Assembly (NCBI GenBank): GCA_001898405.1
Contig: MKTW01000004.1
Location: forward strand, 74,156-138,155
Length of the DNA stretch: 64,000 nucleotides
Direction: 5' to 3'
Origin: Sphingobacteriales bacterium 44-61
GTDB lineage: Bacteria; Bacteroidota; Bacteroidia; Chitinophagales; Chitinophagaceae
Made by a program: the position numbers and the translations under genes. Under the pieces are notes generated by a model. That model searched no databases. It saw only the letters and a list, made by a program, of their open reading frames with translations, and was not told where the DNA came from. Shown here piece by piece: positions 23,013-52,442 of this stretch. Numbering within the stretch: the first letter of the stretch is position 1; every line of letters begins with the position of its first letter.

Positions 23013-23303
23013 TTACTTATTAGCGCCCAGGTAGGCCTGAAGATTCTTCACATATTCTTCAAATGCAGTAACACCGAGGGAAGTTATTTTACAGATCGTT
23101 TGCGGGTAATTGTTTTTGAACTGCTTCACTACATCAATATAGCCGGCATCTTTCAGCTTTTGGATCTGCACGCTGAGATTACCTGCCGTAGAATTGGTCT
23201 TCTCTTTCAGAAAAGTGAACTCTGCCTCTTTCACACTGATGAGCAACGACATTACTGCAAGCCGTAACTGTGAATGTAATATGGGATCAAGGTCTTTAAA
23301 CAT
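23013..23303 (-). CDS. Winged-helix transcriptional regulator (HTH_34-like)
   Basis: 96 residues forming a single winged-helix domain. There is an N-terminal helix (LDPILHSQLRLAVMSLL), a recognition region (STAGNLSVQIQKLKDAGYIDV) and a wing (NNYPQTICKITSLG). It resembles the small MarR/ArsR-like regulators called winged helix DNA-binding domain (HTH_34). Its start overlaps the end of the upstream membrane-protein gene by 8 bp, a translationally coupled pair in which the regulator probably controls its own operon. Confidence 0.85.
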   Translation of the reverse strand: MFKDLDPILHSQLRLAVMSLLISVKEAEFTFLKEKTNSTAGNLSVQIQKLKDAGYIDVVKQFKNNYPQTICKITSLGVTAFEEYVKNLQAYLGANK

Positions 23304-23976
23304 GTGCAGATTTTGCTTTCCGGTGTCTTTTGTTCAATATCAATCCCGGAATAAGCCAGTTGCCGATACCAGCCAACCCGCTTAACAACATATCATATTT
23401 GAAAGAAGTAAAAAGAGAAATAACAAAAAAACAGTAACATGCAATAGCGCCGATGATCATTGGTTTAAACTTGCTGAGCCATCCTGTGATCAGGGTGGGA
23501 AATGCATAAATGATCAGGAAAACAGAAGTTATACTGAGCGTGCTTGGCCGATATGGTTTTGTTTCCCCCGTCACCGTGTTATGCGACAGCAACTCAAGAT
23601 GCTCACTGGCAAAAAAACGTTCGCTGAGAGCAGGTATAACGTTCACATATATTACCAGGCAGGTAATGCTTATTCCAAATACGCTCCAGGCAATATCCAC
23701 CGCAACTTCCTCATGGGTTTTCACGATGCTTCTCTTTGAATCACGGATATTGAACCAGACGCCGGGAATAATGGCAGCCAGTATCAGGAACCATATATCA
23801 AACCCGATCGAGAAATTCCATTGCAGTTCTGCAAAGCTGACCAGGCCGCAAGTACCGATCACAGCACCCCACAAAATAGCACTGGCACCACTTTCGTGGT
23901 AATTGTCTTTTGCTTTGCCGATCATTTCCTGGATCAGCCGGAGGCTTTCCTGTTCGGAAATATTTCTTTCTTCCAT
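23296..23976 (-). CDS. Membrane protein paired with the HTH regulator
   Basis: 226 residues. A cytoplasmic N-terminal helix (EESLRLIQEMIGKAKD-like) is followed by about five or six membrane segments and a basic tail. Such two-gene units of a multi-helix membrane protein and a small winged-helix protein are common in Bacteroidota, but no function is established. A hairpin element (24011-24103) lies just upstream. Confidence 0.75.
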   Translation of the reverse strand: MEERNISEQESLRLIQEMIGKAKDNYHESGASAILWGAVIGTCGLVSFAELQWNFSIGFDIWFLILAAIIPGVWFNIRDSKRSIVKTHEEVAVDIAWSVFGISITCLVIYVNVIPALSERFFASEHLELLSHNTVTGETKPYRPSTLSITSVFLIIYAFPTLITGWLSKFKPMIIGAIACYCFFVISLFTSFKYDMLLSGLAGIGNWLIPGLILNKRHRKAKSAHV

Positions 23977-39121: not shown

Positions 39122-39259
39122 AAGGATAGATATGCAAATTTAATAACCCGCGTTGATATTCAACTATAATCTGTTTATCATACAGTTATAAGACGGTTTT
39201 CGGGGCATAAGGTTGTCTGTGGTCCGCCCTGCATTTTCCTGTCATAAAATCATGCCTGA

Positions 39260-39289
39260 TATTAAGTTATCATTAAGTCTGTATGAACA
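39260..39289. promoter_or_regulatory. 11-bp phased direct repeats between paralogue operon and PhoB-like gene
   Basis: On the minus strand, heptamers CTTAATG (39277-39271) and CTTAATA (39266-39260) are 11 bp apart, with a weaker GTTCATA one period before. CTTAATA is the same heptamer as upstream of the PlcP-like gene. The downstream GGTnAY and CCTTTG parts of the other Pho-type promoters are missing here, so this is a weaker candidate. Confidence 0.4.
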
Positions 39290-39349: not shown

Positions 39350-40027
39350 ATGGAAACTAAGGCCCGAAAAGTGCTGATAGCCGACGATGAGCCGGATATA
39401 TTAGAAATTTTAAAATACAACCTCAGCGGCGAAGGATATGATGTGATAACCGCCAAAGACGGGGATGAAGCGCTCGAAAAAGCAAGGCGTACCCAACCAG
39501 ACCTGGTGGTGCTGGACGTAATGATGCCTAAAAAAACAGGGGTGGAAGTTTGCCAGATCCTCCGCACCCAGGCAACTTTCAAAGACACCCTGATCATTTT
39601 CCTCACAGCTGTAAATGATGATGGCAGCCAGATCAGGGGTTTGGAAACCGGCGCTGACGATTATGTGAGTAAGCCGATCAGTCCAAAAGTGTTCCTGAGC
39701 CGCGTGAACGCTTTGTTCCGCCGGCTGAATAAAGCAGAGGTCAAGACCCTGGAACTGGAAAATATCAAAATAGATCCCGAGCGCTTTATGGTGCAGGTGG
39801 ATGGAAGTGATATCGTGCTGGCGAAAAAGGAATTTGAATTATTATATCTATTGGCCCAGAAACCAGGTCGTGTATTCCTTCGCAATGAAATACTCAACCA
39901 GGTATGGGGTAATGATGTGATCGTAGGCGACCGCACTATCGATGTCCATATCCGCAAGATCCGCCAGAAACTGGGGATCGATTGCGTGACGACGGTGAAG
40001 GGAGTAGGATATAAGTTTGAGCTTTGA
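39350..40027 (+). CDS. OmpR/PhoB-family response regulator
   Basis: 225 residues from ATG 39350 (METKARKVLIADDEPD). The receiver domain has the acidic pair DDE, the phospho-acceptor Asp in LVVLDVMMPKKTG, the Thr of FLTA and the Lys of VSKPISP. The C-terminal winged helix (KKEFELLYLLA, RTIDVHIRKIRQKLG) is of OmpR/PhoB type. It is followed 16 bp later by its kinase. With the phosphate genes around it, a PhoB role is likely; this is inferred from context. Confidence 0.93.
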   Translation: METKARKVLIADDEPDILEILKYNLSGEGYDVITAKDGDEALEKARRTQPDLVVLDVMMPKKTGVEVCQILRTQATFKDTLIIFLTAVNDDGSQIRGLETGADDYVSKPISPKVFLSRVNALFRRLNKAEVKTLELENIKIDPERFMVQVDGSDIVLAKKEFELLYLLAQKPGRVFLRNEILNQVWGNDVIVGDRTIDVHIRKIRQKLGIDCVTTVKGVGYKFEL

Positions 40028-40043
40028 AGCGTAACTTCATTAC

Positions 40044-41093
40044 ATGTTCTCCCTTAAAAATATTTCCCCCCGTCAGCTTTCTTTTCTTACTGCTCTGGGC
40101 TTAGCTGCCCCGATCAGCCTGCTGGTATTTGTGATTGAAAAAAGATGGCAACCGGTATTGATCTCTTTCCTGGTAATATTGGGGGGTGGTTATTTCCTGA
40201 TCAGCTTCGTGCTTGAAAGATTTATCTACCGGAAGATCAAGCTCATTTATAAATTCATTTACCAGACCAAAGCCACCAAAAGACAGGAAACCTACTACAA
40301 ATACATTTTACCCAAGAAAAGCATTGATGAAGTAAGGGAAGATGTGGAAGCCTGGGCAACGGAAAACAAACAGGAAATAGAACTGCTGCGGGCTAATGAG
40401 CAATTCAGAAAAGAATTCCTTCAAAATCTTTCACACGAATTCAAAACGCCTGTATTCGCCATACAGGGTTATGTGGATACCTTGCTGCAAGGCGCCCTGG
40501 AAAATCCGCAGGTAAACAGGAAATTCCTGGAAAAAACATCCACCAATGTGGAAAGGCTTACCAATCTGCTGAATGACCTGGATGAAATATCAAGACTGGA
40601 AAGAGGCGAGTTGAACCTGATCAAGCAAAACTTTGTGATCCAGGATCTCGTAAAAGAAACATTTGAAAGCATCTCCATTATGGCGGAGCAAAAGAATATC
40701 CGCTGCAGCATCAAGAAAGGTTGTGAATCCCCGCTTACCGTTTTTGCCGATAAGGAAAAAATAAGACAGGTGCTGCTGAATCTTGTGGAGAACTCCATCA
40801 AATATGGCAAACAGAACGGTTCTATTACAGCCAGCATGTATATTACTGATGGCAGACATGTGCTGGTGGAGATAAGGGATGACGGGATCGGCATTCCCGA
40901 AAAACACCTGACCCGCATTTTTGAACGTTTCTATCGCACTGAAGAAGGCCGCAGCCTTGATGTAACAGGAAGCGGGCTGGGGCTGGCCATTTGCAAACAT
41001 ATCATTGAAGCGCACGGGCAAACCATTCACGCACGCAGCCGCGAGGATGTAGGCACATCCATCGGTTTTACGCTCGATAGAAAAAAGGATTGA
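40044..41093 (+). CDS. PhoR-like sensor histidine kinase
   Basis: 349 residues. Two membrane helices near the N-terminus with almost no periplasmic loop, a linker, then the dimerisation domain with the phospho-accepting His in NLSHEFKTPVFAIQGY. The ATPase domain has the N box (LVENSIKYGK), G1 (IRDDGIGIP), F box (RIFERFYR) and G2 (GSGLGLAI). The missing sensor domain is typical of PhoR proteins that sense through the phosphate uptake system. It is in an operon with the response regulator. Confidence 0.92.
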   Translation: MFSLKNISPRQLSFLTALGLAAPISLLVFVIEKRWQPVLISFLVILGGGYFLISFVLERFIYRKIKLIYKFIYQTKATKRQETYYKYILPKKSIDEVREDVEAWATENKQEIELLRANEQFRKEFLQNLSHEFKTPVFAIQGYVDTLLQGALENPQVNRKFLEKTSTNVERLTNLLNDLDEISRLERGELNLIKQNFVIQDLVKETFESISIMAEQKNIRCSIKKGCESPLTVFADKEKIRQVLLNLVENSIKYGKQNGSITASMYITDGRHVLVEIRDDGIGIPEKHLTRIFERFYRTEEGRSLDVTGSGLGLAICKHIIEAHGQTIHARSREDVGTSIGFTLDRKKD

Positions 41094-41096
41094 TCA

Positions 41097-42191
41097 TTAC
41101 TTCCTCGAAGCGATCTTTGTTCCCGGTTCAAATTCCTCACCTACCAGTCCTGCAATCATGCCGGCTACCTGTTGCAGGTACAATTGCTGTTCGTCCTTCA
41201 CTTCACCCAGGGGAGCCACACCCGGCCCCATCATGGCCAGCCATGTTTGTGAAGAGCCGCGGATAAAAAGATGATGCGAAGCCCATTTTGCATCACGGTA
41301 TCCTCTTCCATGATCAGTGGTAATAATAATAGATGTGTTGTCTTTATAACCTGGCGTGGTTTGTATCCAATGCCATAATTCGGCCAGCAGCCTGTCTGCT
41401 TTGTTAAGATGCTCCAGGTACATATCATAGCGGGCTGAATGGGCATACTCGTCGGTTTCTCCCAGTCCCAGGAAAAGCACCTTTGGCCTGTGTTCTTCCA
41501 GGTATTCACGCGCAGCCAGGAAAGTGAGCTGATCGTAGCGTGTACCACCCTTGTGATAAACGTTTTCCTCCTGCACTTTATTGACCAGTTGCTGCCCGCT
41601 GGAAAGATGCTCGCCTTCCACTTTCTGATAACCGCTGTTGACGGGTATCCCATTCCTTTGCTCATTCAGGATATAGGGGAATACATCCCATGAAGTGAAT
41701 GCTGCCACTTTTCCTTTAAACTCATCTTTGCTCTCCAGGTACTCAAGCACATTGATATTGCTGTTGTACCTTTTTTTGTTGGATGATACCAGCAGGTCTG
41801 TAGTACCGGTGAATATTTCATTATAACCGGGATAGGAAAAAGCATAGAGGTTGGCCACATTCACTTTATTATTCAGCTGCCTGTTACCATACAGTTGTCC
41901 TTTCCCTGCCAGTACAGACCAAAAAAAAGGCATCAGTTGCCTGCGCCTTTGCTCTTTATTATCCGACCAGTAAAGTGCCTTGATGGTATTCGTGTCGGGA
42001 GTGAACTTCGGATCATTGATCAGGTCTTCGTCCGCGCCATTGAATATCTCCTGCCAGCGGACCCCGTCGATCGTAACAACGACCAGGTTTTTAGCAGGCC
42101 TGATATCGATAGGTGTTTGCTGAGCTAACCGTGAAGGTGTAGCAGAAGGAAGTGTTGCAAGGAGGATTAAAGAAGTAAGGAAAACTTTCAC
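41097..42191 (-). CDS. Alkaline phosphatase superfamily protein (phosphodiesterase/phosphatase-like)
   Basis: 364 residues from GTG 42191 (MKVFLTSLILLATLPSATPS, a signal peptide); another GTG at 42206 is possible. Metal-ligand motifs of the superfamily are present: VTIDGVRWQEIF near the N-terminus, GLGETDEYAHSARY, IITTDHGRG and SHHLFIRG. The nucleophile is probably in FSYPGYNEIFTG. An exported phosphate-releasing enzyme fits the phosphate theme. It converges with the kinase gene (3-bp gap). A Pho-type promoter precedes it. Confidence 0.88.
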   Translation of the reverse strand: MKVFLTSLILLATLPSATPSRLAQQTPIDIRPAKNLVVVTIDGVRWQEIFNGADEDLINDPKFTPDTNTIKALYWSDNKEQRRRQLMPFFWSVLAGKGQLYGNRQLNNKVNVANLYAFSYPGYNEIFTGTTDLLVSSNKKRYNSNINVLEYLESKDEFKGKVAAFTSWDVFPYILNEQRNGIPVNSGYQKVEGEHLSSGQQLVNKVQEENVYHKGGTRYDQLTFLAAREYLEEHRPKVLFLGLGETDEYAHSARYDMYLEHLNKADRLLAELWHWIQTTPGYKDNTSIIITTDHGRGYRDAKWASHHLFIRGSSQTWLAMMGPGVAPLGEVKDEQQLYLQQVAGMIAGLVGEEFEPGTKIASRK

Positions 42192-42205: not shown

Positions 42206-42262
42206 CAAAGAAAGGCAGATAGTGTGACCGGAAGGTTAAGGTAAGGTGATGAAACTATGAAA
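42206..42262 (-). promoter_or_regulatory. Pho-type promoter of the alkaline-phosphatase-superfamily gene
   Basis: Reading the minus strand, 7-mers at 11-bp phase are TTTCATA (42262), CATCACC (42251), CTTAACC (42240) and GGTCACA (42229). A 9-nt spacer and the -7-like TTTCTTTG (42213-42206) follow. Spacing and the GGTnAY unit match the promoters at 42298-42343 and 50186-50264. The distal heptamers are degenerate. Confidence 0.6.
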
Positions 42263-42297
42263 TGGCTGTGGGTCGGCCACGCCCTATTTCATAAATG

Positions 42298-42343
42298 CTT
42301 AATACTCGCTTAATACTAAGGTTATATACCATCCTGACCTTTA
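42298..42343 (+). promoter_or_regulatory. Pho-type promoter of the PlcP-like/glycosyltransferase operon
   Basis: Two identical heptamers CTTAATA (42298-42304, 42309-42315) are 11 bp apart. GGTTATA (42320-42326) is in the same phase, then come 9 nt and the -7-like GACCTTTA (42336-42343). The ATG follows at 42357. The order and distances equal those upstream of the TonB receptor gene at 50170. Confidence 0.65.
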
Positions 42344-42356
42344 GCAAACCTTTTGA

Positions 42357-43205
42357 ATGCAAAAACGTCCCGTTGATGTAGCTGTAATATCCGACCTGCA
42401 CCTTGGCACGTATGCCTGCCGGGCAAAAGAGTTTGTCAGCTACCTCAATAGCATCGAGCCCCGCCTCCTTATTCTCAATGGCGACATTATTGATGGATGG
42501 CAATTCAGCAAGCATTATTTTCCTCTTCATCACATCACCGCCATTCAGCAGATATTCCACCTGCTCTCCAATGGCACAAGGGTTATTTACATCACCGGCA
42601 ATCATGATGAAACACTGCGCCGGTATGCCGATCTCCATCTTGGAAATTTTCAACTGGCGGATAAAGTAGTGATAGAAATAGATGGAAAAATGAACTGGAT
42701 CTTCCATGGTGATGTGTTTGATCACACCACAGCCAATCAGGCCAAGTTCTGGGGCAAACTCGGCAGCAATGGCTATGCAATGCTGCTGGGTTTTAACAAA
42801 ATGATCAATAAAATGATGAGGCTGCTGGGCCGGGAAAAAGTTTCCCTTTCCAAAAAGATCATGGAGCAGTTTCATAAACGCTTTGTGCGCATCGATGCTT
42901 TTGAAACCATGATCGCTGAGCTGGCCATTGAAAAAAAATATGACTGTGTGATCTGCGGTCATATCCACCAACCCGTCAAAAGAGTTTACAGCAATGAAAA
43001 AGGGGCTGTCACTTATCTCAATTCAGGAGATTGGGTTGAGCACATGACTTCCCTGGAATATTATAACAACGACTGGCATTTATACACACACCAGCAGGAA
43101 GAGACCCAACCTGAACCGGCGAAACAACCCAAGCCAAAGCCCGAAGTGATCACCAACGAAATAGCTATTTATCTGCATTCTTTAACCCAACCCTCAGCAA
43201 TATGA
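42357..43205 (+). CDS. PlcP-like metallophosphoesterase (annotated UDP-2,3-diacylglucosamine diphosphatase family)
   Basis: 282 residues. Calcineurin-like metal motifs are complete: SDLHLG (11-16), NGDIIDGW, TGNHDE, FHGDVFDH and CGHIHQP. The SDLHLGTYACRA and GDIIDGW forms are those of the PlcP subgroup of COG2908, known in Sinorhizobium as a phospholipase C that removes phosphate head groups during phosphate starvation, and not those of classical LpxH. The last 4 bp overlap the glycosyltransferase gene (ATGA). The C-terminal tail is Pro/Lys/Gln rich. PlcP function is inferred from motifs, partner gene and promoter. Confidence 0.85.
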   Translation: MQKRPVDVAVISDLHLGTYACRAKEFVSYLNSIEPRLLILNGDIIDGWQFSKHYFPLHHITAIQQIFHLLSNGTRVIYITGNHDETLRRYADLHLGNFQLADKVVIEIDGKMNWIFHGDVFDHTTANQAKFWGKLGSNGYAMLLGFNKMINKMMRLLGREKVSLSKKIMEQFHKRFVRIDAFETMIAELAIEKKYDCVICGHIHQPVKRVYSNEKGAVTYLNSGDWVEHMTSLEYYNNDWHLYTHQQEETQPEPAKQPKPKPEVITNEIAIYLHSLTQPSAI

Positions 43206-44221
43206 ACATATTATATGCTATACAGGCAACAGGCAACGGACACATTAGCCGTGCCATGGAATTATTACCGCACCTCGAAGAGTACGGCAATATTGATATT
43301 TTCCTTAGTGGCGGCAACAGTCATCTTGCGCTTGATGCGCCGATCAAATACCGCAGCAAGGGTTTAAGCCTTTATTATAATTGTAATGGAGGATTGGATT
43401 ACTGGCAAATCGCCAAAGGCATTCACCCATTGCGTCTCCGCCAGGAGATCCGGGACCTGCCTGTAGAAAAATATGATCTCGTGCTCAACGATTTTGATTA
43501 CATCACTTCAGCCGCCTGCGCCCGCAAAAAGGTCCCGTCCATTAATTTCGGGCACCAGGCCAGCTTTTATTCATCCCACACTCCAAGGCCTTCTATAAAA
43601 AACTCAACAGGCGAATGGATCCTGAAGAATTATGCAAAAGCTACGCATTATGTAGGCCTGCATTTCAAATCGTATGATCATTTCATTTTCACCCCTGTGG
43701 TAAAGCAACAGATACTGGAAGCCAATCCTACTGATAAAGGTTATATCACGGTGTACCTGCCATCCTATTGCGAGCCGCAACTGGTGGAAATATTCAGTGC
43801 ATTCGGCGATCTTCAATTCGACGTGTTCTGCGGCCAGGTGATGCAACCGAGGCAAGAGGGAAACCTGCGTTTGCTGCCAGTCAATAAGCAGGCGTTTAAC
43901 GAAAGCCTGATCCATTGCAGCGGCATCATTACCGGCGGAGGATTTGAAACCCCGGCCGAAGCCCTGCACCTGGGTAAAAAGATCATGTCGATCCCCATCC
44001 GCAGCCAGTATGAGCAGCAATGCAATGCAGCTGCTTTACAGGAAATGGGCATCCGGGTACTGAAAAGTATCGATCATACGTTCAGCGATCATCTCGAAGA
44101 CTGGATCAACAATGATGAAAGGATAAAAATGGATTACAGTAAAAGCATCCCTGAAAGCCTGGAATATCTTTTCAGTTTAAATGTTGAAAAAAGAGAAAAT
44201 GAATTGCTGGAAGTAGCCTAA
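43202..44221 (+). CDS. MurG-like glycosyltransferase, probable diacylglycerol glycosyltransferase
   Basis: 339 residues, GT-B fold. The N-terminal ATGNGHISRAMELLPHL loop and the C-terminal donor site GGGFETPAEALHLGKK with a following RSQYEQQCNA are typical of the MurG/UGT superfamily. It is translationally coupled to the PlcP-like gene (ATGA overlap). In known lipid remodelling, PlcP yields diacylglycerol and a partner glycosyltransferase adds sugar to it; the same step is proposed here. Donor and acceptor are not known. Confidence 0.83.
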   Translation: MNILYAIQATGNGHISRAMELLPHLEEYGNIDIFLSGGNSHLALDAPIKYRSKGLSLYYNCNGGLDYWQIAKGIHPLRLRQEIRDLPVEKYDLVLNDFDYITSAACARKKVPSINFGHQASFYSSHTPRPSIKNSTGEWILKNYAKATHYVGLHFKSYDHFIFTPVVKQQILEANPTDKGYITVYLPSYCEPQLVEIFSAFGDLQFDVFCGQVMQPRQEGNLRLLPVNKQAFNESLIHCSGIITGGGFETPAEALHLGKKIMSIPIRSQYEQQCNAAALQEMGIRVLKSIDHTFSDHLEDWINNDERIKMDYSKSIPESLEYLFSLNVEKRENELLEVA

Positions 44222-44317
44222 GAAATATCAGCTGATTTAATATTGAGATAATGCTGCTATAATAACCGCTTAACAAACAAGCTCCATCTTTACACCAGTT
44301 CTTTCTTCCAAGTCGTT

Positions 44318-44414
44318 CCCATTTGCAGGATGGTTCTAGCAGTTATTCCATCCATGCAAGTCTTCTCATGCAGTTTAGCCACTCCGGTCGTCCTTCCTGA
44401 GTGGCTTTTTTTTG
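44318..44414 (+). ncRNA. Two-hairpin structured region ending in a terminator (possible small RNA)
   Basis: A first hairpin pairs TTGCAGGATGG with CCATCCATGCAA (about 44322-44360, one bulge). A second is a strong terminator, AGCCACTC (44377-44384) with GAGTGGCT (44399-44406), followed by eight T. The terminator ends the plcP-like operon transcript. The first hairpin, in the 268-bp gap without an ORF, makes a small RNA or a structured 3' UTR possible. No promoter was identified. Confidence 0.35.
44377..44414 (+). terminator. Rho-independent terminator after the glycosyltransferase gene
   Basis: An 8-bp perfect stem (44377-44384 with 44399-44406) and a run of eight T. It separates the lipid-remodelling pair from the transglutaminase-like gene. 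Confidence 0.85.
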
Positions 44415-44489
44415 CCTCAACCATCCCCCGGAAATTTAATATTACCTTATTGTTAAGTTTTAATAATTTTATAGTGGATTGATTGTGCC

Positions 44490-45701
44490 GTGAAAATAAA
44501 ATTCCCTATACATCCCATCCTGGGGCTCTTGCTGATCAGCCTGCTATCTTCTTTTTCTCCAAAGAATACACAAGCTATCCGTTTTGATTTTTATGGTGAT
44601 ACGGTTGAATTGGAAGTGGATGATGCTTTCAAAACCAGTTTCAGCGGACCGCTTTCACTGGAGTCTGTGACGGCATTCTATGAAAAACTGAATGCCGGCA
44701 ATTATGAAAGCCTTATAAAAAAGATGCTTTTTTATAAGGAACAGTATAAGCTGGACGATTGGTTGTATTACCAGCTGATCCGGCGGACCGCTCAATCCAT
44801 CAGCCCTAAGGGAGAAAATTACACTGCTTATACGATCTATAAATGGTTCCTTCTTTGCAAATCCGGCTATAATGCCACTTTGCAGGTCACCGATGGCAAG
44901 ATCCTGTTTTATGTGCAAAGCGATGAAGTCATTTACGATATTCCTTACCATTTCAAAGATGGCAAGCAATACGTTTGCCTTAACTACCACGATTACGGGT
45001 CAATGATCGATTTTGACCAGGAAAAGTTTACCGAACTGCCGATTCATATACCGGGAGCGGAAAAAGCGTTTTCTTATAAGATCAATCAGCTACCCAGCTT
45101 TAAGCCGGAAGACTACCTGGAAAAGGACCTGCTCTTCAATATTTACCAGACTGAATACCATCTCAAAATAAAGCTGAATCCACAGATAAAAACGATTTTC
45201 GCCAATTACCCGGTAGTGGATTATGCATCTTATTTCAATATTCCTCTCAGCAAGGAAACATACAGTTCCCTTATCCCATTGCTGAAGCAGAATGTGAAAG
45301 GATTAAACGCCAAGAACGGCGTCGATTATCTCATGCGCTTTACCCGCTATGCTTTCCTGTTTGAAAAGGATGCCGATGTGTTTGGAAAGGAAAAGCGCTT
45401 TACGCCGGAGCAAACTCTCCTGTATGAGTATAGTGATTGTGAGGACAGGGCGGCTTTGTTTTTTTATCTCGTAAAGGAAATTTATAACCTGCCGATGATT
45501 GTTTTGTCTTATCCCAAACATATCACCATTGCGGTGAAGCTGGATAAACCTGTAGGGACCCCCATTGTTTATAATGGTGATCAGTATACCATCTGTGAAC
45601 CTACTCCGCAAAAGCAGGATGTGTTGATAGGTCAAATGTTGCCGTCCCTTCGTAAAGTGCCTTACGAAATCGTGTATGCTTACGCCCCTCTCTATAAATA
45701 A
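44490..45701 (+). CDS. Secreted transglutaminase-like/cysteine-peptidase-fold protein
   Basis: 403 residues; GTG start at 44490 and a signal peptide (MKIKFPIHPILGLLLISLLS). The C-terminal part shows a transglutaminase-like core: Cys in YSDCEDRAALFFYLV, His in YPKHITIAVKL and an acidic residue in YTICEPT. The N-terminal 250 residues are unlike any domain I recognise. It is probably periplasmic, with an unknown role. It has its own leader after the 44.4-kb terminator and converges with the lipoprotein gene. Confidence 0.78.
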   Translation: MKIKFPIHPILGLLLISLLSSFSPKNTQAIRFDFYGDTVELEVDDAFKTSFSGPLSLESVTAFYEKLNAGNYESLIKKMLFYKEQYKLDDWLYYQLIRRTAQSISPKGENYTAYTIYKWFLLCKSGYNATLQVTDGKILFYVQSDEVIYDIPYHFKDGKQYVCLNYHDYGSMIDFDQEKFTELPIHIPGAEKAFSYKINQLPSFKPEDYLEKDLLFNIYQTEYHLKIKLNPQIKTIFANYPVVDYASYFNIPLSKETYSSLIPLLKQNVKGLNAKNGVDYLMRFTRYAFLFEKDADVFGKEKRFTPEQTLLYEYSDCEDRAALFFYLVKEIYNLPMIVLSYPKHITIAVKLDKPVGTPIVYNGDQYTICEPTPQKQDVLIGQMLPSLRKVPYEIVYAYAPLYK

Positions 45702-45703
45702 GA

Positions 45704-45731
45704 AATCGCCCCGGACAAACCCGGGGCGATT
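45704..45731. terminator. Bidirectional terminator
   Basis: An 11-bp GC-rich perfect stem (45704-45714 with 45721-45731, 6-nt loop) starts 3 bp after the transglutaminase-like stop and lies 28 bp from the convergent lipoprotein gene stop. Confidence 0.8.
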
Positions 45732-45759
45732 ATATAAATTCTGCTTTATTGATATAAGC

Positions 45760-47295
45760 TTAGTTGAATACACACCAGCCTTTGTACCAGCTTGCCAGGT
45801 CTCCTGAAGGAGAGATAGCGCCGCGGAATTTCACCGTTTTATCGATAAAGGCATTATTAGCCAGTTTAGCATCTGTGAAAGCATAACCGTTAATAATAGG
45901 ATTAGGCTGACCCAATACGCTGCCGGATCCAAATGGAGTGAAGTCAGGGTTGATATAGTCGAATGGGCGGGTATAACCTACATTCTCATTGTTAGTGATG
46001 ATTTGGTTCCCGTTTTCAGCGAGATTAACCCAGGCAAGAATTTCAGCATCTGAAGATTGTGCTGCAGCGTTGGTACCTGCAGAATATTTTACAGGAGCCC
46101 AGGCCGGGAATGAAGGGTGATTGCCACAACCAGCAATGATGTTGTTTTTGAACTTCAATTCGCCGCTACCTGTTGGAAGGCCTATATTGAGATCAGTTGG
46201 AGTACCAGTGCTCGCATCGATCAGCAGACCACGGGGCCATCCCATAAACACAGAATTGAAAATGGAAATGGCAGAGTTTCTTCTGATCTGTGCAGCTGCA
46301 AGGAAATAGCTGTTACCAACATTAGCGAGTGTAGCACGTGGGCCGATCGCTGTTATGTTAGAGAATATGGCAGAAGTTTTAGGTGTAGCTGTAGTACCGG
46401 TAGCATTATTATCGCTCTCAAATGCTTCTGAGTTAGATACGTCTGCATTGGCAGAATCGCGAACGATAAGGCCAAACTGTACAGTACCGCTATAGCCGTT
46501 ATCTGTATCGAAATCATCATCCTGTGTTCTGTATGCAACCAGGTATTTACAGTTAACCGTACCGCCAAACCATTCGTACGCATCATCTTTTGCATAAGTC
46601 ACCTGCACGTGATCGATCGTTGTGCCGGAGCCTACTGCACCCATTGTCAAACTGTTGATCTCTTTATCAGGAATGAATGCATAACCAGCGTATTCGATAC
46701 GCACATAGCTCAGTACACCTGAGTTGTCATTGTTAACAGGGTTAGCGCCGCCGCCGCATACACCTTCACCATAAGTATTGTCTACACCACCTTCGATCTG
46801 GAAAGTACCGGCACCGATCAATACATTTGGGTTATTGGGATATACGCTTGCGATATCAGCAGTATAGGTTGCATTGATCGCTGCTTTACCCAGCAATACG
46901 ATACCGCCCCAGTCACCTGAACGTGGATTGGGTGAATTGGAAGTGAAAACGATTGGCTCGCTGGCTGTTCCCTGTGCAATGATCTGTGAGCCGCGGGTAA
47001 TGATCAGGGCTGCAACTTCTGCTCCACTGTATGTGCCTTTGATCACTGTTCCGGCTTCAACGGTCATTTTAGCACCATTTGTTACATACACTTTTCCCTG
47101 CAGGATATACGTATTCGTTTTCTTCAGGACCGTATCTGAAGTGATACGTCCTTTCAGCGTAATAGTTTCGCCAGAGGGGCCGCCATTACCACCACCGGGA
47201 ACGATGACGATTTCTTTTTCACCATCTGTTTCAATCTTCCGGCATCCTGTGAATGCTGCGATGGCAAGTGCTGAATAAAGAATGATCTTTTTCAT
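45760..47295 (-). CDS. Outer-membrane lipoprotein, beta-helix-like, TonB-receptor partner
   Basis: 511 residues. The lipobox is in ALAIAAFTGCRK, so it is a lipoprotein (Cys18). After a Gly-rich linker come beta-rich repeats (GKVYVTNGAKMTVEAGTVI, SGDWGGIVLLG, GTTIDHVQVTYAKDDAYEWFGG) that suggest a right-handed beta-helix. It follows the TonB receptor by 52 bp on the same strand, so the two form a receptor-lipoprotein pair, although it is not SusD-like. A role in binding a phosphate-containing ligand is suggested only by context and promoter. Confidence 0.8.
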   Translation of the reverse strand: MKKIILYSALAIAAFTGCRKIETDGEKEIVIVPGGGNGGPSGETITLKGRITSDTVLKKTNTYILQGKVYVTNGAKMTVEAGTVIKGTYSGAEVAALIITRGSQIIAQGTASEPIVFTSNSPNPRSGDWGGIVLLGKAAINATYTADIASVYPNNPNVLIGAGTFQIEGGVDNTYGEGVCGGGANPVNNDNSGVLSYVRIEYAGYAFIPDKEINSLTMGAVGSGTTIDHVQVTYAKDDAYEWFGGTVNCKYLVAYRTQDDDFDTDNGYSGTVQFGLIVRDSANADVSNSEAFESDNNATGTTATPKTSAIFSNITAIGPRATLANVGNSYFLAAAQIRRNSAISIFNSVFMGWPRGLLIDASTGTPTDLNIGLPTGSGELKFKNNIIAGCGNHPSFPAWAPVKYSAGTNAAAQSSDAEILAWVNLAENGNQIITNNENVGYTRPFDYINPDFTPFGSGSVLGQPNPIINGYAFTDAKLANNAFIDKTVKFRGAISPSGDLASWYKGWCVFN

Positions 47296-47347
47296 TTTTT
47301 ATGATTTCTGTGTTTATGTACTTTTTATTGTTGACTTGTTGATTTAA

Positions 47348-50170
47348 TTACAGGCTGTATCCGAATGTGATGCTGAATGTGGTGCCATATTGACGGGTAA
47401 ACCTGTACATGTCCACACCCTTGTTCAATTTTGTGTTTCCATCCACATTCTGATAGAAATATGCTTTCTTGTTCAGGATATCAGACACATTCAGCCTGAT
47501 CTCACCTTTGTTTTTTACGACCTTCTTGGCAATCTGGAAATCGAGCAGGGGTCTTGATGCTTCCCAGGTATCAGGGAACTCAGACATGCCGGAACCGGTA
47601 GAATTTATAGAACCGACGAAAGCGATCCGTTTACCGATCTGGTTGAACAGCAAGCTCGCGTTGAGTCCGGCATTCTCCAGGTCATACAGCAGGCCTGCAT
47701 TGATCAGGTAGTTTGACTGGCCTTGCAAAGGGCGATCTATTGTCAGCTTCGCATCACTCACCTTACTCTTGATATAAGACAGGTTGGTGAGGAAGGTGAA
47801 ATTCTTAAGTCCGTCAGTGAAATCAAGTTTCTTCCTGAACTCCAACTCAGCGCCATAAGCTTCTGCTTTTTCAGGATTGGAGAAGTTGATGGTGCTTGAT
47901 CCGCCACCACCTAACTGGAATATCTGCTCGATTGGTTTGTCGAAATGTTTGTAGAACACACCGATGCTGAATGTTTCACCTGCCCTTGGATATAATTCAT
48001 AGCGCAGGTCGGCATTGGTGATCTTGGTACGTTGAAGACCTGTTGCACCCTGTACGGTAGCATTCAGATCGAAATCATAGAACTGGAAGGGAGCTACCTC
48101 ACGCAATTCAGGGCGTACCACCGTTTGTGACCCTGACAATCTCAGGTTTGTTTTATTGTTCAGTTTCAGGGTGGCATTCAGTCCGGGCAGGAAGTCGGTC
48201 ACTTCTGTATGCGAGTGGCGGCTGTCCCATGCTTTCACACTACCCATCAGTTGGTCATAGTTTTCTACACGCACACCCCACACAACACGCAGCGCTTGCG
48301 ACAATTGGTTGTCGAACTGGATATAACCTGCATTCAGAATAGTATTGGCGAGATAACGGAAGATGTTTGCATCAAGTGCTTCAAAAGCAAATTTGTTGTC
48401 GAAGCCGGTCCCGAAATTATCCGGGTTGAAGATCTGATCAGGGCCAAGCAATCTCAACTGCTCATTATCTCTGGGCAGATAAATGGAGAATGGTTTGGAA
48501 TCGAATAAACGGTCCCGGACCTGGATCATATATCCAGCTTTAACTGACTGATTGAAACCGAAAGCCCTGAATGATTTGGTCAGATCTGCACCACCGGTAT
48601 AGATATAATCATTCAGGAACTGGTAAAAGCGGTTGCCACTTTGTTGCGACAGTACGCCGCTTATATTAGCAAGGTAGGGGCGGTTATTCTCATTGTCTTT
48701 GCTGTAAGTAAGGCGGCGCTGATCAGGGATATAAGAATCCAGGATGCTGAAGCCACCATACCATTTCAATTTGAATGCCTGCTGGAAAAGCGACAGGTTG
48801 TGTTCGCCTGTAAGCTGATTGCTCCAGAACATATTTTGTTTGAAACCAAGCTCAGAACCTTTCAGGCTATCCAGAGAGGAACGGCCATTGTTCACTTCAC
48901 CACCACGGTTGGTAGTATAGTCTGTGGTGTTTACGTTGAAAATGGTTTTATAGGAAATTTTATTATTGGCATTGAACTGGAAGGTCACAGCACCCATGCC
49001 TCCCCACAATACATCCTGTGCATAACGGTTATCATTATACAGGAAGTCAGGGGTTATTACAGTATTGCCTGAAACATCGTCAGAAAACGCATAACCATTG
49101 TTGGTCAGCTTAAGATAGCGGTTAGATTTGTTGTATGTAAGGCCGAGTATTACACCCAGCTGTTTATCACCGCTGAATTTTTTATTAAAACCGCCACTCG
49201 CCTGGAAAGAAGTGTTGATAGGAGAAGATACTTTCTCAGGAGCCCATACATTTTCAAATTGTTTTCCTACTTCAATTTTTTGAGCAGGGGTCAGTACTTT
49301 GAACTGGTTTTTGGAACCATAAGAAGCAGGAAGCCCTCTTTGACCGTCATCAATTCCCAGGAAGTCGAGTTTACCACCTTTATAAGAATAGAAATCATTA
49401 CTGACCGTTTGGGTATTGAAACCTGTACCGATCTGTACATTAAAGAAGTTTTTTGCAGGAATATCCCTTGTATTCACCTGAACCAGGCCACCGGCCCATT
49501 CGCCGGGCAGTTCGGGTACAAATGCTTTATTAATAATAATATTATCAATCATAGCCGAAGGGAAGATGTCGAAAGAGAAGGTCTTCCTGTCGGGTTCAGT
49601 GCTGGAAAGCAATATGCCATTCAGCATTGCCTGGTTATAACGGTCAGCCAGGCCTCTTACTACCAGGTATTTACCATCCTGGATACTGGTACCGGGCGTA
49701 CGTTTCAATACCTCACCAGTATTTTTATCAGGAGAGCGGCGGATGCTTTCAGCAGAAATAACAGAAGCTACGGTGTTGGTATTTTTCTGAAAGGAAATGG
49801 CAGAGTTCACGCTTTCGAGGCGGGCGCTGGAACGTCTTGCAGTAACCACCACGTTCTCACCTTCCTTTGCCTTTATTACCAATACAACGTTCAACTCATT
49901 GAGCTGGTCGGTCGCTTCAACATCTGTTACAGTTTTTGTTTCATATCCTATGGCAGAAAACTCAAGTTCATATTTACCGGTTGGTAATGTTAAGGTATAG
50001 CGGCCTTCAACATTGGTAGAGGTTCCGCCGGCCTGACCTGCAATTCTTACAGACACACCTGGCAGTGGTTCATTTTTTTCATTGGAAACTTTACCAGAAA
50101 CCTTGTTTTGTGCGTAAGTGAAAGAAAATGCAAATGAGAGAATCAACAGTAATTTCAGCCGCAGTAGCAT
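47348..50170 (-). CDS. TonB-dependent receptor with carboxypeptidase-like domain, probable phosphate-starvation receptor
   Basis: 940 residues from ATG 50170 (MLLRLKLLLILSFAFSFTYA, a signal peptide). Domain order: carboxypeptidase regulatory-like (KVSGKVSNEKNEPLPGVSV, about 20-105), plug (GEVLKRTPGTSIQDGKYLVV), and a long barrel ending in YGTTFSITFGYSL. It is co-transcribed with the lipoprotein gene downstream. Upstream lie five 11-bp phased heptamers and a -7-like box, and beyond them DUF47 and PiT, so regulation by phosphate is likely. The substrate is not known. Confidence 0.92.
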   Translation of the reverse strand: MLLRLKLLLILSFAFSFTYAQNKVSGKVSNEKNEPLPGVSVRIAGQAGGTSTNVEGRYTLTLPTGKYELEFSAIGYETKTVTDVEATDQLNELNVVLVIKAKEGENVVVTARRSSARLESVNSAISFQKNTNTVASVISAESIRRSPDKNTGEVLKRTPGTSIQDGKYLVVRGLADRYNQAMLNGILLSSTEPDRKTFSFDIFPSAMIDNIIINKAFVPELPGEWAGGLVQVNTRDIPAKNFFNVQIGTGFNTQTVSNDFYSYKGGKLDFLGIDDGQRGLPASYGSKNQFKVLTPAQKIEVGKQFENVWAPEKVSSPINTSFQASGGFNKKFSGDKQLGVILGLTYNKSNRYLKLTNNGYAFSDDVSGNTVITPDFLYNDNRYAQDVLWGGMGAVTFQFNANNKISYKTIFNVNTTDYTTNRGGEVNNGRSSLDSLKGSELGFKQNMFWSNQLTGEHNLSLFQQAFKLKWYGGFSILDSYIPDQRRLTYSKDNENNRPYLANISGVLSQQSGNRFYQFLNDYIYTGGADLTKSFRAFGFNQSVKAGYMIQVRDRLFDSKPFSIYLPRDNEQLRLLGPDQIFNPDNFGTGFDNKFAFEALDANIFRYLANTILNAGYIQFDNQLSQALRVVWGVRVENYDQLMGSVKAWDSRHSHTEVTDFLPGLNATLKLNNKTNLRLSGSQTVVRPELREVAPFQFYDFDLNATVQGATGLQRTKITNADLRYELYPRAGETFSIGVFYKHFDKPIEQIFQLGGGGSSTINFSNPEKAEAYGAELEFRKKLDFTDGLKNFTFLTNLSYIKSKVSDAKLTIDRPLQGQSNYLINAGLLYDLENAGLNASLLFNQIGKRIAFVGSINSTGSGMSEFPDTWEASRPLLDFQIAKKVVKNKGEIRLNVSDILNKKAYFYQNVDGNTKLNKGVDMYRFTRQYGTTFSITFGYSL

Positions 50171-50185
50171 AGAAGTAATTTCCGG

Positions 50186-50264
50186 CAAAGGAAGAATTGG
50201 AAGATTACCGGCATGTTATGCAGCAATTAAGGAATTGTGAAGGCAATGTTATGGAAATGTTATG
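50186..50264 (-). promoter_or_regulatory. Pho-type promoter of the TonB receptor/lipoprotein operon
   Basis: On the minus strand, five heptamers at exact 11-bp phase: CATAACA (50264), CATAACA (50253), CTTCACA (50242), CTTAATT (50231) and CATAACA (50220). GGTAATC (50209-50203) in the same phase, 9 nt, and the -7-like TTCCTTTG (50193-50186) follow. Seven-bp repeats with 4-bp spacers are the known layout of PhoB and PhoP boxes. ATG 50170 follows. Confidence 0.7.
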
Positions 50265-50446: not shown

Positions 50447-51094
50447 ATGGGACTTAATTCATTTTTGAAAATTTTCATGCCTAAGAACAGGATATTCTTT
50501 GAACTTTTTGAACAGGTGGCAGACAATGTCGCTAAAATGGGAACAGTGATGAAGGATGTGGTAGCCGAAACTGATTTCGACAAACGTGCTGCCCTGATCG
50601 CCCAGATCGAAGACCTGGAACATGCCAACGATGAACTTACCCATAGCGTGTTTACCGAGCTCGGGCGCAACTTTATCACTCCGTTCGACCGGGAAGATAT
50701 TCACTACCTCGCCACTTCGCTGGATGATATCGCCGACTATATATATGCTTCTGCCAAAAAGATCAATTTCTACCGTGTGAACCCCAACGACATGGGTATG
50801 CAGAAAATGGCTGAGCTGATTGAGCAGGGTGCTTACCAGATCCGCATTGCTGTAAAAGAGCTCCGCGATATGAAAAACATGCGCAATATCACCGAGGCGC
50901 TGGTTAAGATCAACAGTATCGAAAACCAGGCAGATGATATTTTTGACATGAGCATCGAACGCCTGTTTGCGACAGAGCCTGACGCAAAAGAAGTGATCAA
51001 GAAAAGGGAGATCTACCAGGTAATGGAGATCGTGACCGATAAATGTGAAGATGCCAGCAATGTGATAGAGTCTATCATTATTAAATACGCTTAA
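50447..51094 (+). CDS. DUF47 family (PhoU-like) phosphate transport regulator
   Basis: 215 residues, all helical, with two PhoU-like three-helix bundles (FELFEQVADNVAKMGTVMKDVV, YLATSLDDIADYIYASAKKIN, MEIVTDKCEDASNVIESIIIKYA). DUF47 proteins are encoded next to PiT transporters and are thought to regulate them. Here PiT follows after 145 bp. The product is cytoplasmic. The gene is divergent from the TonB receptor. Confidence 0.93.
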   Translation: MGLNSFLKIFMPKNRIFFELFEQVADNVAKMGTVMKDVVAETDFDKRAALIAQIEDLEHANDELTHSVFTELGRNFITPFDREDIHYLATSLDDIADYIYASAKKINFYRVNPNDMGMQKMAELIEQGAYQIRIAVKELRDMKNMRNITEALVKINSIENQADDIFDMSIERLFATEPDAKEVIKKREIYQVMEIVTDKCEDASNVIESIIIKYA

Positions 51095-51239: not shown

Positions 51240-52442
51240 ATGACCACTTTCCTTATTGTTATTATAGCATTAGCGCTGATCTTTGACTATATCAATGGCT
51301 TTCATGATGCGGCCAATTCCATTGCCACAGTGGTTTCCACTAAAGTGCTCACGCCTTTCCAGGCAGTGCTTTGGGCGGCCCTGTTCAACTTCGTCGCTTT
51401 CTTTATTTTCAGGGATCATGGTGTGGCAAATACGATTGCCAAAACTGTAAAAAATGATTTTATCACCCTGGAAGTAATTTTCTCCGGCCTGATCGCTGCT
51501 ATCATCTGGAACCTGTTTACCTGGTGGCGCGGCATTCCGTCTTCTTCCTCTCATACACTGATCGGTGGTTTTGCCGGTGCAGCCATTGCCCATTCCGGTT
51601 CATTCAGTTCGGTTAACTCAGGCCCGGTGATCCAGATCGCTGCCTTTATTTTCCTGGCTCCCCTGATCGGTATGATCGTAGCTTTTGTTATTTCCCTTTG
51701 GTTTATTTATTCTTTTAAAAAGACCAGGGGCCCTAAAATATTTTCCTCTTTGGTGATCCTGGGTGTTCTCATCTTTTTATTTACGCACCTGGAAACTGAT
51801 CCGGCTAAGCTGAAATCGCATTACGACTCTTTTTTTCTGAAAGTGGTATTCCACTCACAGAATTTCAAATGGATATTGATGAGCCTTATTGTTATAATCA
51901 TGGCCATCTTCTCCTTATACCTGAGCAACCTGAATGCACATAGGGCAACTTCCTGGTTCAAGCGCCTGCAACTGGTATCATCTGCCGTATTCAGCATCGG
52001 GCATGGAGGTAATGATGCACAGAAGGTAATGGGTATTATCATGGCTGCGCTTATCGCCTCCAATCCTACCCGCTATAGCCTTGACCACATGGAACCCTGG
52101 GTGCCGCTGGCCTGCTATACTGCCATTGCATTGGGTACCATGAGCGGTGGCTGGAAGATCGTAAAGACCATGGGTACCCGTATCACCAAAGTAACTCCTT
52201 TTGAAGGCGTTGCGGCTGAAACTGCCGGTGCTCTTACACTTTTCGTTACAGAATCACTTAAAATACCTGTAAGTACTACCCACACCATTACAGGCGCGAT
52301 CATGGGCGTAGGTGCTACCAAACGCCTTTCGGCCGTTCGCTGGGGCGTTACGGTAAACCTGATCTGGGCCTGGGTGCTGACCATCCCGGTGAGCGGATTG
52401 CTGGCTACGGGTGTTTATTACGTTGTACATCTGTTCGTTTGA
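51240..52442 (+). CDS. Inorganic phosphate transporter, PiT family
   Basis: 400 residues with about ten membrane segments. Both PiT signatures are visible: GFHDAANSIATVVSTKVLTP near the N-terminus and GHGGNDAQKVMGII in the second half, plus KIPVSTTHTITGAI. It is a low-affinity metal-phosphate/proton symporter. It forms a conserved pair with the DUF47 protein, separated by a gap that holds an AT-rich hairpin. Confidence 0.96.
   Translation: MTTFLIVIIALALIFDYINGFHDAANSIATVVSTKVLTPFQAVLWAALFNFVAFFIFRDHGVANTIAKTVKNDFITLEVIFSGLIAAIIWNLFTWWRGIPSSSSHTLIGGFAGAAIAHSGSFSSVNSGPVIQIAAFIFLAPLIGMIVAFVISLWFIYSFKKTRGPKIFSSLVILGVLIFLFTHLETDPAKLKSHYDSFFLKVVFHSQNFKWILMSLIVIIMAIFSLYLSNLNAHRATSWFKRLQLVSSAVFSIGHGGNDAQKVMGIIMAALIASNPTRYSLDHMEPWVPLACYTAIALGTMSGGWKIVKTMGTRITKVTPFEGVAAETAGALTLFVTESLKIPVSTTHTITGAIMGVGATKRLSAVRWGVTVNLIWAWVLTIPVSGLLATGVYYVVHLFV

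Follow-up and report, generated by a model that had tools for sequence, protein, structure and literature searches.

A 64,000-nt stretch of the genome of Sphingobacteriales bacterium 44-61 (assembly GCA_001898405.1, contig MKTW01000004.1, positions 74,156 to 138,155; hereafter the window) raises the question of how the phosphate genes of Bacteroidota are switched on. These bacteria are prominent in the mobilization of phosphorus around plant roots (PMC8115612), and the literature searched yielded no account of how their phosphate genes are switched at the promoter. In the window a TonB-dependent receptor, a PlcP-like metallophosphoesterase and an alkaline-phosphatase (AP)-superfamily protein are encoded close to a PhoB/PhoR-like pair, and the original prediction was that the three genes share one unusual promoter architecture, a candidate Pho box of this lineage. 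We conclude that these promoters carry phased repeat arrays that are in all likelihood the Pho boxes of this lineage, bound by PhoB, and that the regulator encoded at 39350-40027 is very probably the protein concerned.

The promoters contain phased arrays of a heptamer

The predicted composite pattern, comprising a heptamer, 4 nt, GGTnAY, a spacing and an 8-mer NWYCTTTR, has three exact matches in the 5.58-Mb genome, while the reversed pattern used as a control has none. The matches are at 42206-42240 (minus strand), 42309-42343 (plus) and 50186-50220 (minus), i.e. at the AP, plcP and TonB receptor promoters for which the pattern was proposed. All three sites are direct repeats of a heptamer with an 11-bp phase. 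The consensus unit in the family is [CG][GTA]TAA[CT]A followed by 4 nt, and the information content of the aligned TonB promoters is autocorrelated at lags of 11 (0.68) and 22 (0.39). Tandem units of ~7 bp with ~4-bp spacers are those expected of a Pho box of the PhoB/PhoP type. Both the consensus and the tabulated units show GGTnAY to be the final heptamer of the array, and not the separate element that had been supposed.

The array of the TonB receptor gene (50186-50264, minus strand) has six in-phase units, from 50203, 50214, 50225, 50236, 50247 and 50258, five of them with a TAA core; up to five had been predicted, and the sixth is gained by including GGTnAY. The plcP array (42298-42343, plus) has three units (42298-42304, 42309-42315 and 42320-42326), two with the core. 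The AP promoter (42206-42251, minus) is weaker, with one TAA-core unit and two variants at 42223-42229, 42234-42240 and 42245-42251. An array scorer was constructed from three phased units plus TTT(G/A) placed 13 nt past the last unit. At a score of at least 27.5 it found four arrays in the window, whereas 60 dinucleotide shuffles of the same sequence gave none; at 26.5 or above there were six, compared with a mean of 0.15 in the shuffles. The four are the three predicted sites and one more at 44247-44292, part of a fourth array (44236-44292, plus strand, score 29.4) with four units from 44236, 44247, 44258 and 44269, all with the TAA core. What departs from chance in the architecture is the combination of a phased array with TTT(G/A).

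The predicted 8-mer is present at fixed spacing, and it can now be described more exactly as probably containing the -7 promoter element of Bacteroidota. In Flavobacterium psychrophilum this element is TAnnTTTG at -12 to -5 (PMC9723704), to which the TTTG of the arrays corresponds. The candidate elements are TTCCTTTG (50186-50193) for the TonB receptor, GACCTTTA (42336-42343) for plcP, TTTCTTTG (42206-42213) for AP and CATCTTTA (44285-44292) for the fourth array. This geometry would put the last unit at roughly -28 to -22 and its predecessor at roughly -39 to -33, giving the three window mRNAs leaders of ~9-11 nt. TTTG stands 13 nt past the last unit in 29 of 31 anchored TonB promoters, where the anchor was chosen partly on this spacing, and TTTG or TTTA is in place in 28 of 30 PlcP promoters, a set that was kept outside the building of the consensus. 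The arrays therefore occupy the place of a -35/-33 element at a fixed distance from the -10/-7 element, which is the position of a Pho box.

The arrays are conserved before orthologous genes

The TonB set comprised 30 receptor loci of the family (our own included), three named contigs (two Chitinophagaceae and one Flavobacterium sp.) and the paralog on contig C17 of our own genome; omission of one truncated locus (L100) left 33 rows. The consensus was taken from this set only, and each promoter was scored against 200 shuffles of itself. A site with p<=0.01 was found in 31 of the 33 TonB-receptor promoters (28 of 30 outside our own genus) and in every one of the 30 PlcP promoters, including that of the window (28 of 28 outside the genus).

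A model, R1, was constructed from 48 of the 63 scored sites (33 TonB and 30 PlcP). The alignment excluded our own genus (rows L071, L072, L101, L102 and L103) and ten weak or near-duplicate rows (L035, L094, L095, L109, L110, L113, L115, L117, L120 and L121). It nevertheless recovers all three window sites, with E=5.7e-6 for plcP and E=0.0013 for AP. Scanning our own genome gave 13 rows at E<=0.5, corresponding to 12 sites because the window TonB gene accounts for two rows. Six of the 12 are in front of phosphate genes or of TonB genes that belong to a phosphate cluster: the window TonB gene, the C17 TonB paralog, plcP, AP, a TonB receptor gene adjoining a phytase (PF02333, 3.3e-41) and a GDPD-like gene. 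The C17 paralog is near genes for PafA alkaline phosphatase (707 bits, above cut-off), Pit and PstSCAB-PhoU. A further site lies before a SusC-like gene beside the GDPD-like gene just named, another is the fourth window array, and one precedes a SusC/SusD pair, whose link to phosphate is only by analogy with PusCD.

The possibility that the genome lacks Pst was considered and rejected, as PstS, PstC, PstA, PstB and PhoU are encoded at C17:107722-112037, all above a curated cut-off. In the region C17 98950-117516 (L101/L293) the genes for TonB, its neighbour protein, an ArsR-type regulator, PafA, Pit and PstSCAB-PhoU adjoin an ACR3 arsenite efflux gene, and this is possibly a phosphate/arsenic island. 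We also observe a site with four clean units at C11:574786-574827 (L160 6787-6828); it lacks both a -7 element at the customary distance and a gene in a suitable position.

At E<=0.001 R1 matched 85 of 247 genomes of the class, our own included, where ~0.25 matches would be expected if the rough E-values hold, although AT-rich genomes may yield more. We read 119 sites from genomes other than our own, nine of them in the family of the window; 112 have a downstream open reading frame (ORF) and seven have none by the rule used. As raw counts, the 112 genes include 24 with a TonB plug, eight response regulators, seven PstS, seven Porin_O_P and five PhoU_div, together with one each of Na/Pi cotransporter, PhoX, PI-PLC and the glycosyltransferase family of the window. 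PhoB is the best NCBIfam model for seven of the eight response regulators, none above the curated cut-off, and in one of these (L236) the assignment is narrow, at 177 bits against 174 for MtrA; the eighth (L184) consists only of a receiver domain. Thus a matrix built from the sites finds them before phosphatase, PstS, PhoU or TonB genes in our own genome, before orthologs in the family and across the class, as was anticipated for a Pho box. Two of the class arrays (L199 and L251) lie before related proteins that by eye resemble CHAD, which is polyphosphate-binding.

The regulator and alternative explanations

A PhoB/PhoR-like pair had been noted at 39.3-41.1 kb, and this stands. The response regulator (39350-40027, plus strand) has a receiver and a winged helix by Pfam, and the histidine kinase (40044-41093, plus) has HisKA and HATPase_c domains. 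The kinase is generic; its best model is PnpS, followed by WalK and PhoR, all below cut-off. Of 11 genes in the genome with an OmpR-type DNA-binding domain, that of the window is the only one for which PhoB is the best NCBIfam model, scoring 229 bits with TIGR02154 (next highest 174) and 217 with NF053854 (next highest 176); among the remaining ten, one entered the scan with its N-terminus shortened and another gave no match at 1e-30. These are the two best models for the window protein, yet both scores are below the curated cut-offs (296 and 270 respectively), and we therefore call it PhoB-like and not a PhoB equivalog. Its overall identity with E. coli PhoB is 37%, and the recognition-helix region is nearly identical (DRTIDVHIRKIRQKL vs DRTVDVHIRRLRKAL).

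Beside these sub-threshold scores, several observations weigh against the identification of the arrays as Pho boxes. No array was found at the scan threshold before our own pstSCAB-phoU, pafA and PhoU-Pit genes. Upstream of our own phoB there is only a weak array-like site on the opposite strand (39243-39288, minus; score 26.8, R1 E=0.74) that is not convincing, and autoregulation of the gene is not supported. Three of the 12 R1 sites have no phosphate gene (C11:574786, C7:104500, which is before dnaB, and C1:721621), and the GDPD-like match (PF13653) is barely at the cut-off with 27.0 bits. Within the family the TonB orthologs L094 and L095 fail the shuffle test, the best site of L035 lacks TTTG in place, and in TAnnTTTG the TTTG is kept but conservation of the TA is weak (18 and 17 of 31). 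The class-wide E-values are rough, and many of the genomes are AT-rich. In Riemerella anatipestifer, expression was changed for only 50 of 764 genes targeted by PhoP in DAP-seq (PMC9603813).

The arrays might be bound by another OmpR-family regulator, with the phosphate genes forming part of a wider stress regulon. The number of OmpR-type genes in the genome is in keeping with this, and the authors of the Riemerella study noted a similarity of the PhoP motif to that of ArcA, with 583 peaks and many non-phosphate targets (PMC9603813). Against it, PhoB is the best model for all but one of the array-bearing response regulators of the class, many of the matches in our own genome are phosphate genes, and no other response regulator of this genome has PhoB as its best model; we consider this explanation improbable. 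That the arrays are chance, or a generic AT-rich feature built from ordinary -33/-7 promoters, is a negligible prospect in view of the shuffle tests, the fixed spacing across genera and the kinds of gene behind the class-wide matches, even though simple heptamer pairs are not enriched in the genome (33 vs 46 in the reversed-pattern control) and the counts for the composite pattern with two mismatches (4 vs 14) and a three-unit pattern with three mismatches (142 vs 204) also fall below their controls. All three patterns were rejected as genome scanners for this reason; the two-mismatch count indicates that the literal pattern is over-specific.

We therefore return to the arrays as Pho boxes bound by the PhoB-like protein. 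The phase, the spacing, the conservation and the genes behind the arrays are observed directly; binding by this protein, and induction by lack of phosphate, are predicted from sequence. In the mechanism that we propose, phosphorylated PhoB would bind the tandem 11-bp repeats head to tail, replace the -33 element and activate the housekeeping polymerase at the TTTG -7 element. In the window this would switch on the TonB receptor and its neighbour, PlcP with the glycosyltransferase (for phospholipid replacement), and the AP-superfamily enzyme; elsewhere it would act on SusCD, TonB-phytase, GDPD-like and PafA/Pst/Pit-linked loci. A Pho box that can be searched for would make the regulon readable from the genomes of the class.

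Comparison with known Pho boxes

The half-site of the E. coli Pho box is CTGTCAT, which does not correspond to the array core, TTAAC or TTAAT. The PhoP box of Bacillus consists of TTAACA direct repeats with less strict spacing. The E. coli half-site is printed as CTGTACTA in PMC1906773. The E. coli box resembles the arrays in having direct repeats with an 11-bp period, 10 bp before the -10 box (PMC1906773), and in the recognition-helix region of its regulator; it differs in having at least two units and a -10 box, compared with up to six units and a -7 TTTG in the window. The cyanobacterial SphR box is a tandem CTTAACCT, in which 8 bp plus a 3-bp linker make 11 bp, repeated at least three times (PMC1906773). 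It shares the TTAAC core, while the promoter element and the set of targets differ. Within the phylum there is the box of Riemerella PhoP, likewise a Bacteroidota regulator of the PhoP/PhoB type with a similar core. In DAP-seq its most conserved nucleotides were TTTAACA, and electrophoretic mobility shift showed binding upstream of its own phoPR; the part of that report used here neither treats it as a phosphate box nor gives a fixed -7 spacing (PMC9603813). Given TTTAACA in Riemerella and CTTAACCT in cyanobacteria, this kind of box is known and its core has been seen before, so that the architecture is not as unusual as had been claimed.

Expression data for Flavobacterium johnsoniae concern a similar set of genes. 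On phosphate depletion the TonB receptor, lipoprotein FII and glycosyltransferase of its phoBR cluster were strongly raised, as was phoB, and elsewhere PlcP, the TonB receptor of a phytase cluster and PusCD; phoR (p=0.056) and oprP of the phoBR cluster showed no significant rise (PMC8115612). The TonB receptor of that cluster has three Pfam domains in common with the window receptor. The main text of that paper does not contain the terms 'Pho box', 'promoter' or 'binding site' (PMC8115612). Putative Pho boxes are marked at plcP clusters of marine bacteria, with no sequence in the part of the paper used here (PMC4796936). Searching the literature for Pho box together with Bacteroidetes or Flavobacterium, we found no account of the array as a Pho box of Bacteroidota.

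A candidate small RNA behind the fourth array

The most interesting consequence of identifying the arrays as Pho boxes is a putative Pho-controlled RNA at 44297-44413 (plus strand). The fourth array stands behind the glycosyltransferase gene, and is found in the same place in a second genome of the genus (G084). Over the next ~120 nt the two genomes hardly differ, and the sequence beyond diverges. The block ends in a hairpin and a run of T, where a double change between the two copies keeps the pairing, and it starts about where +1 is expected (44297, from the -7 spacing). The candidate RNA thus comprises a hairpin, the single-stranded UUCUCAUGCAGUU and an intrinsic terminator.

Searching 294 genomes of the family with blastn gave 16 rows in 15 genomes. 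Eleven were inspected (five short ones being left out), of which seven have both an array and a terminator, including our own, and four are unrelated. Model R2, constructed from the RNA without the array, added two loci. Model R3, also without the array, was run on 394 genomes of the family and has 27 matches, spread over 26 genomes and nine of 101 genera, including the nine training genomes. In every one of the 27 copies the best array-like site has its end at offset 0 or +1 relative to the start of the RNA model. Eighteen places lie outside the training set, eight of them in genera absent from the model; 16 of these score at least 26 and the other two 24.4 and 25.6, and the -7 letters are degenerate in three. 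In an alignment that was fitted to the structure, and with kinship uncorrected, 91% of the terminator cells are paired and six of ten pairs have changed on both sides; sliding the partners in this fitted alignment reduces the pairing of the whole structure from 93% to 27-47%. The first hairpin is present in most single folds and lies outside the pairing model. No family was found in Rfam 15; the single match there lay on the opposite strand and at chance level, with 11.3 bits against a gathering score of 77. The locus has its own predicted promoter, its own terminator and cross-genus conservation with compensatory changes, as expected of a stand-alone small RNA.

The conserved block could instead be a leader or attenuator, or a gene for a small peptide. 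The next ORF in the window (44490) is indeed on the same strand, and the block contains an AUG (UUCUCAUGCAG). However, many relatives have the downstream gene on the opposite strand (for example G051, G137, G411, G408 and G460), and the block ends in a covarying terminator. By eye, some copies have GUG in place of the AUG or lack it, and the reading frame after it is not kept. We regard this alternative as unlikely. On balance we favour a PhoB-controlled small RNA of an undescribed family acting in phosphate starvation, perhaps pairing through UUCUCAUGCAGUU or its 5' end (AGUUCUUUC) with mRNAs around their start codons, Shine-Dalgarno sites being absent from this phylum (PMC6847099). It would be a phosphate counterpart of the iron-sparing small RNAs. 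In the proposed mechanism this ~117-nt RNA would also be switched on by PhoB, and would probably adjust the translation of other mRNAs. Such an RNA would offer a simple and direct entry to post-transcriptional control where mRNAs lack Shine-Dalgarno sequences.

By eye, the neighbours of the RNA are glycosyltransferase, lipoprotein-like and surface protein genes in varying orientation. In two genomes (G530 and G109) a kinase near the RNA shares 75% and 64% identity with the PhoR-like kinase of the window, and the same is seen by eye in G009 and G421. Eight orphan arrays were examined (seven from the class and one of our own); by a crude test seven have no terminator within 400 nt, and L228 has one.

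Antisense matches of 11 nt to the RNA occur in 174 kb of our own sequence at about the number expected on a rough estimate. The 5' end of the RNA has 12-nt complementarity at 23964-23976 (minus strand), in the start-codon region of the ORF at 23296-23976 (minus); the number of such matches is near chance and this is only a lead. One genome (G404, C197 2942-3043, L338) has two copies of the RNA ~4.6 kb apart, both with array-like sites. After the array before the GDPD-like gene (L164 6957-7066, minus; C1 ~734 kb) come UUUUCUCGUG and a strong terminator of the kind seen in the small RNA, with R2 E=0.16. This locus is a possible second, divergent Pho-driven RNA.

Other features of the window

The AP-superfamily protein (41097-42191, minus strand) matches Phosphodiest (2.4e-6) and Metalloenzyme (8.3e-6), and its gene probably starts with GTG at 42191. 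The PlcP-like protein (42357-43205, plus) matches Metallophos_2 (3.7e-12). The glycosyltransferase that follows (43202-44221, plus; Glyco_trans_1_3, 5.6e-30) is likely to be the lipid-remodelling partner of PlcP, given the role described in PMC4796936. The TonB-dependent receptor (47348-50170, minus) has Plug, CarbopepD_reg_2 and OMP_b-brl_3 domains. Beside it a candidate surface protein (45760-47295, minus), with no match in Pfam or NCBIfam, is likened to lipoprotein FII of F. johnsoniae solely on the order of the genes (PMC8115612). On the other side of the receptor gene are those for a PhoU-like DUF47 protein (50447-51094, plus; PhoU_div, 5.4e-21) and a Pit phosphate transporter (51240-52442, plus; PHO4, 3.7e-96).

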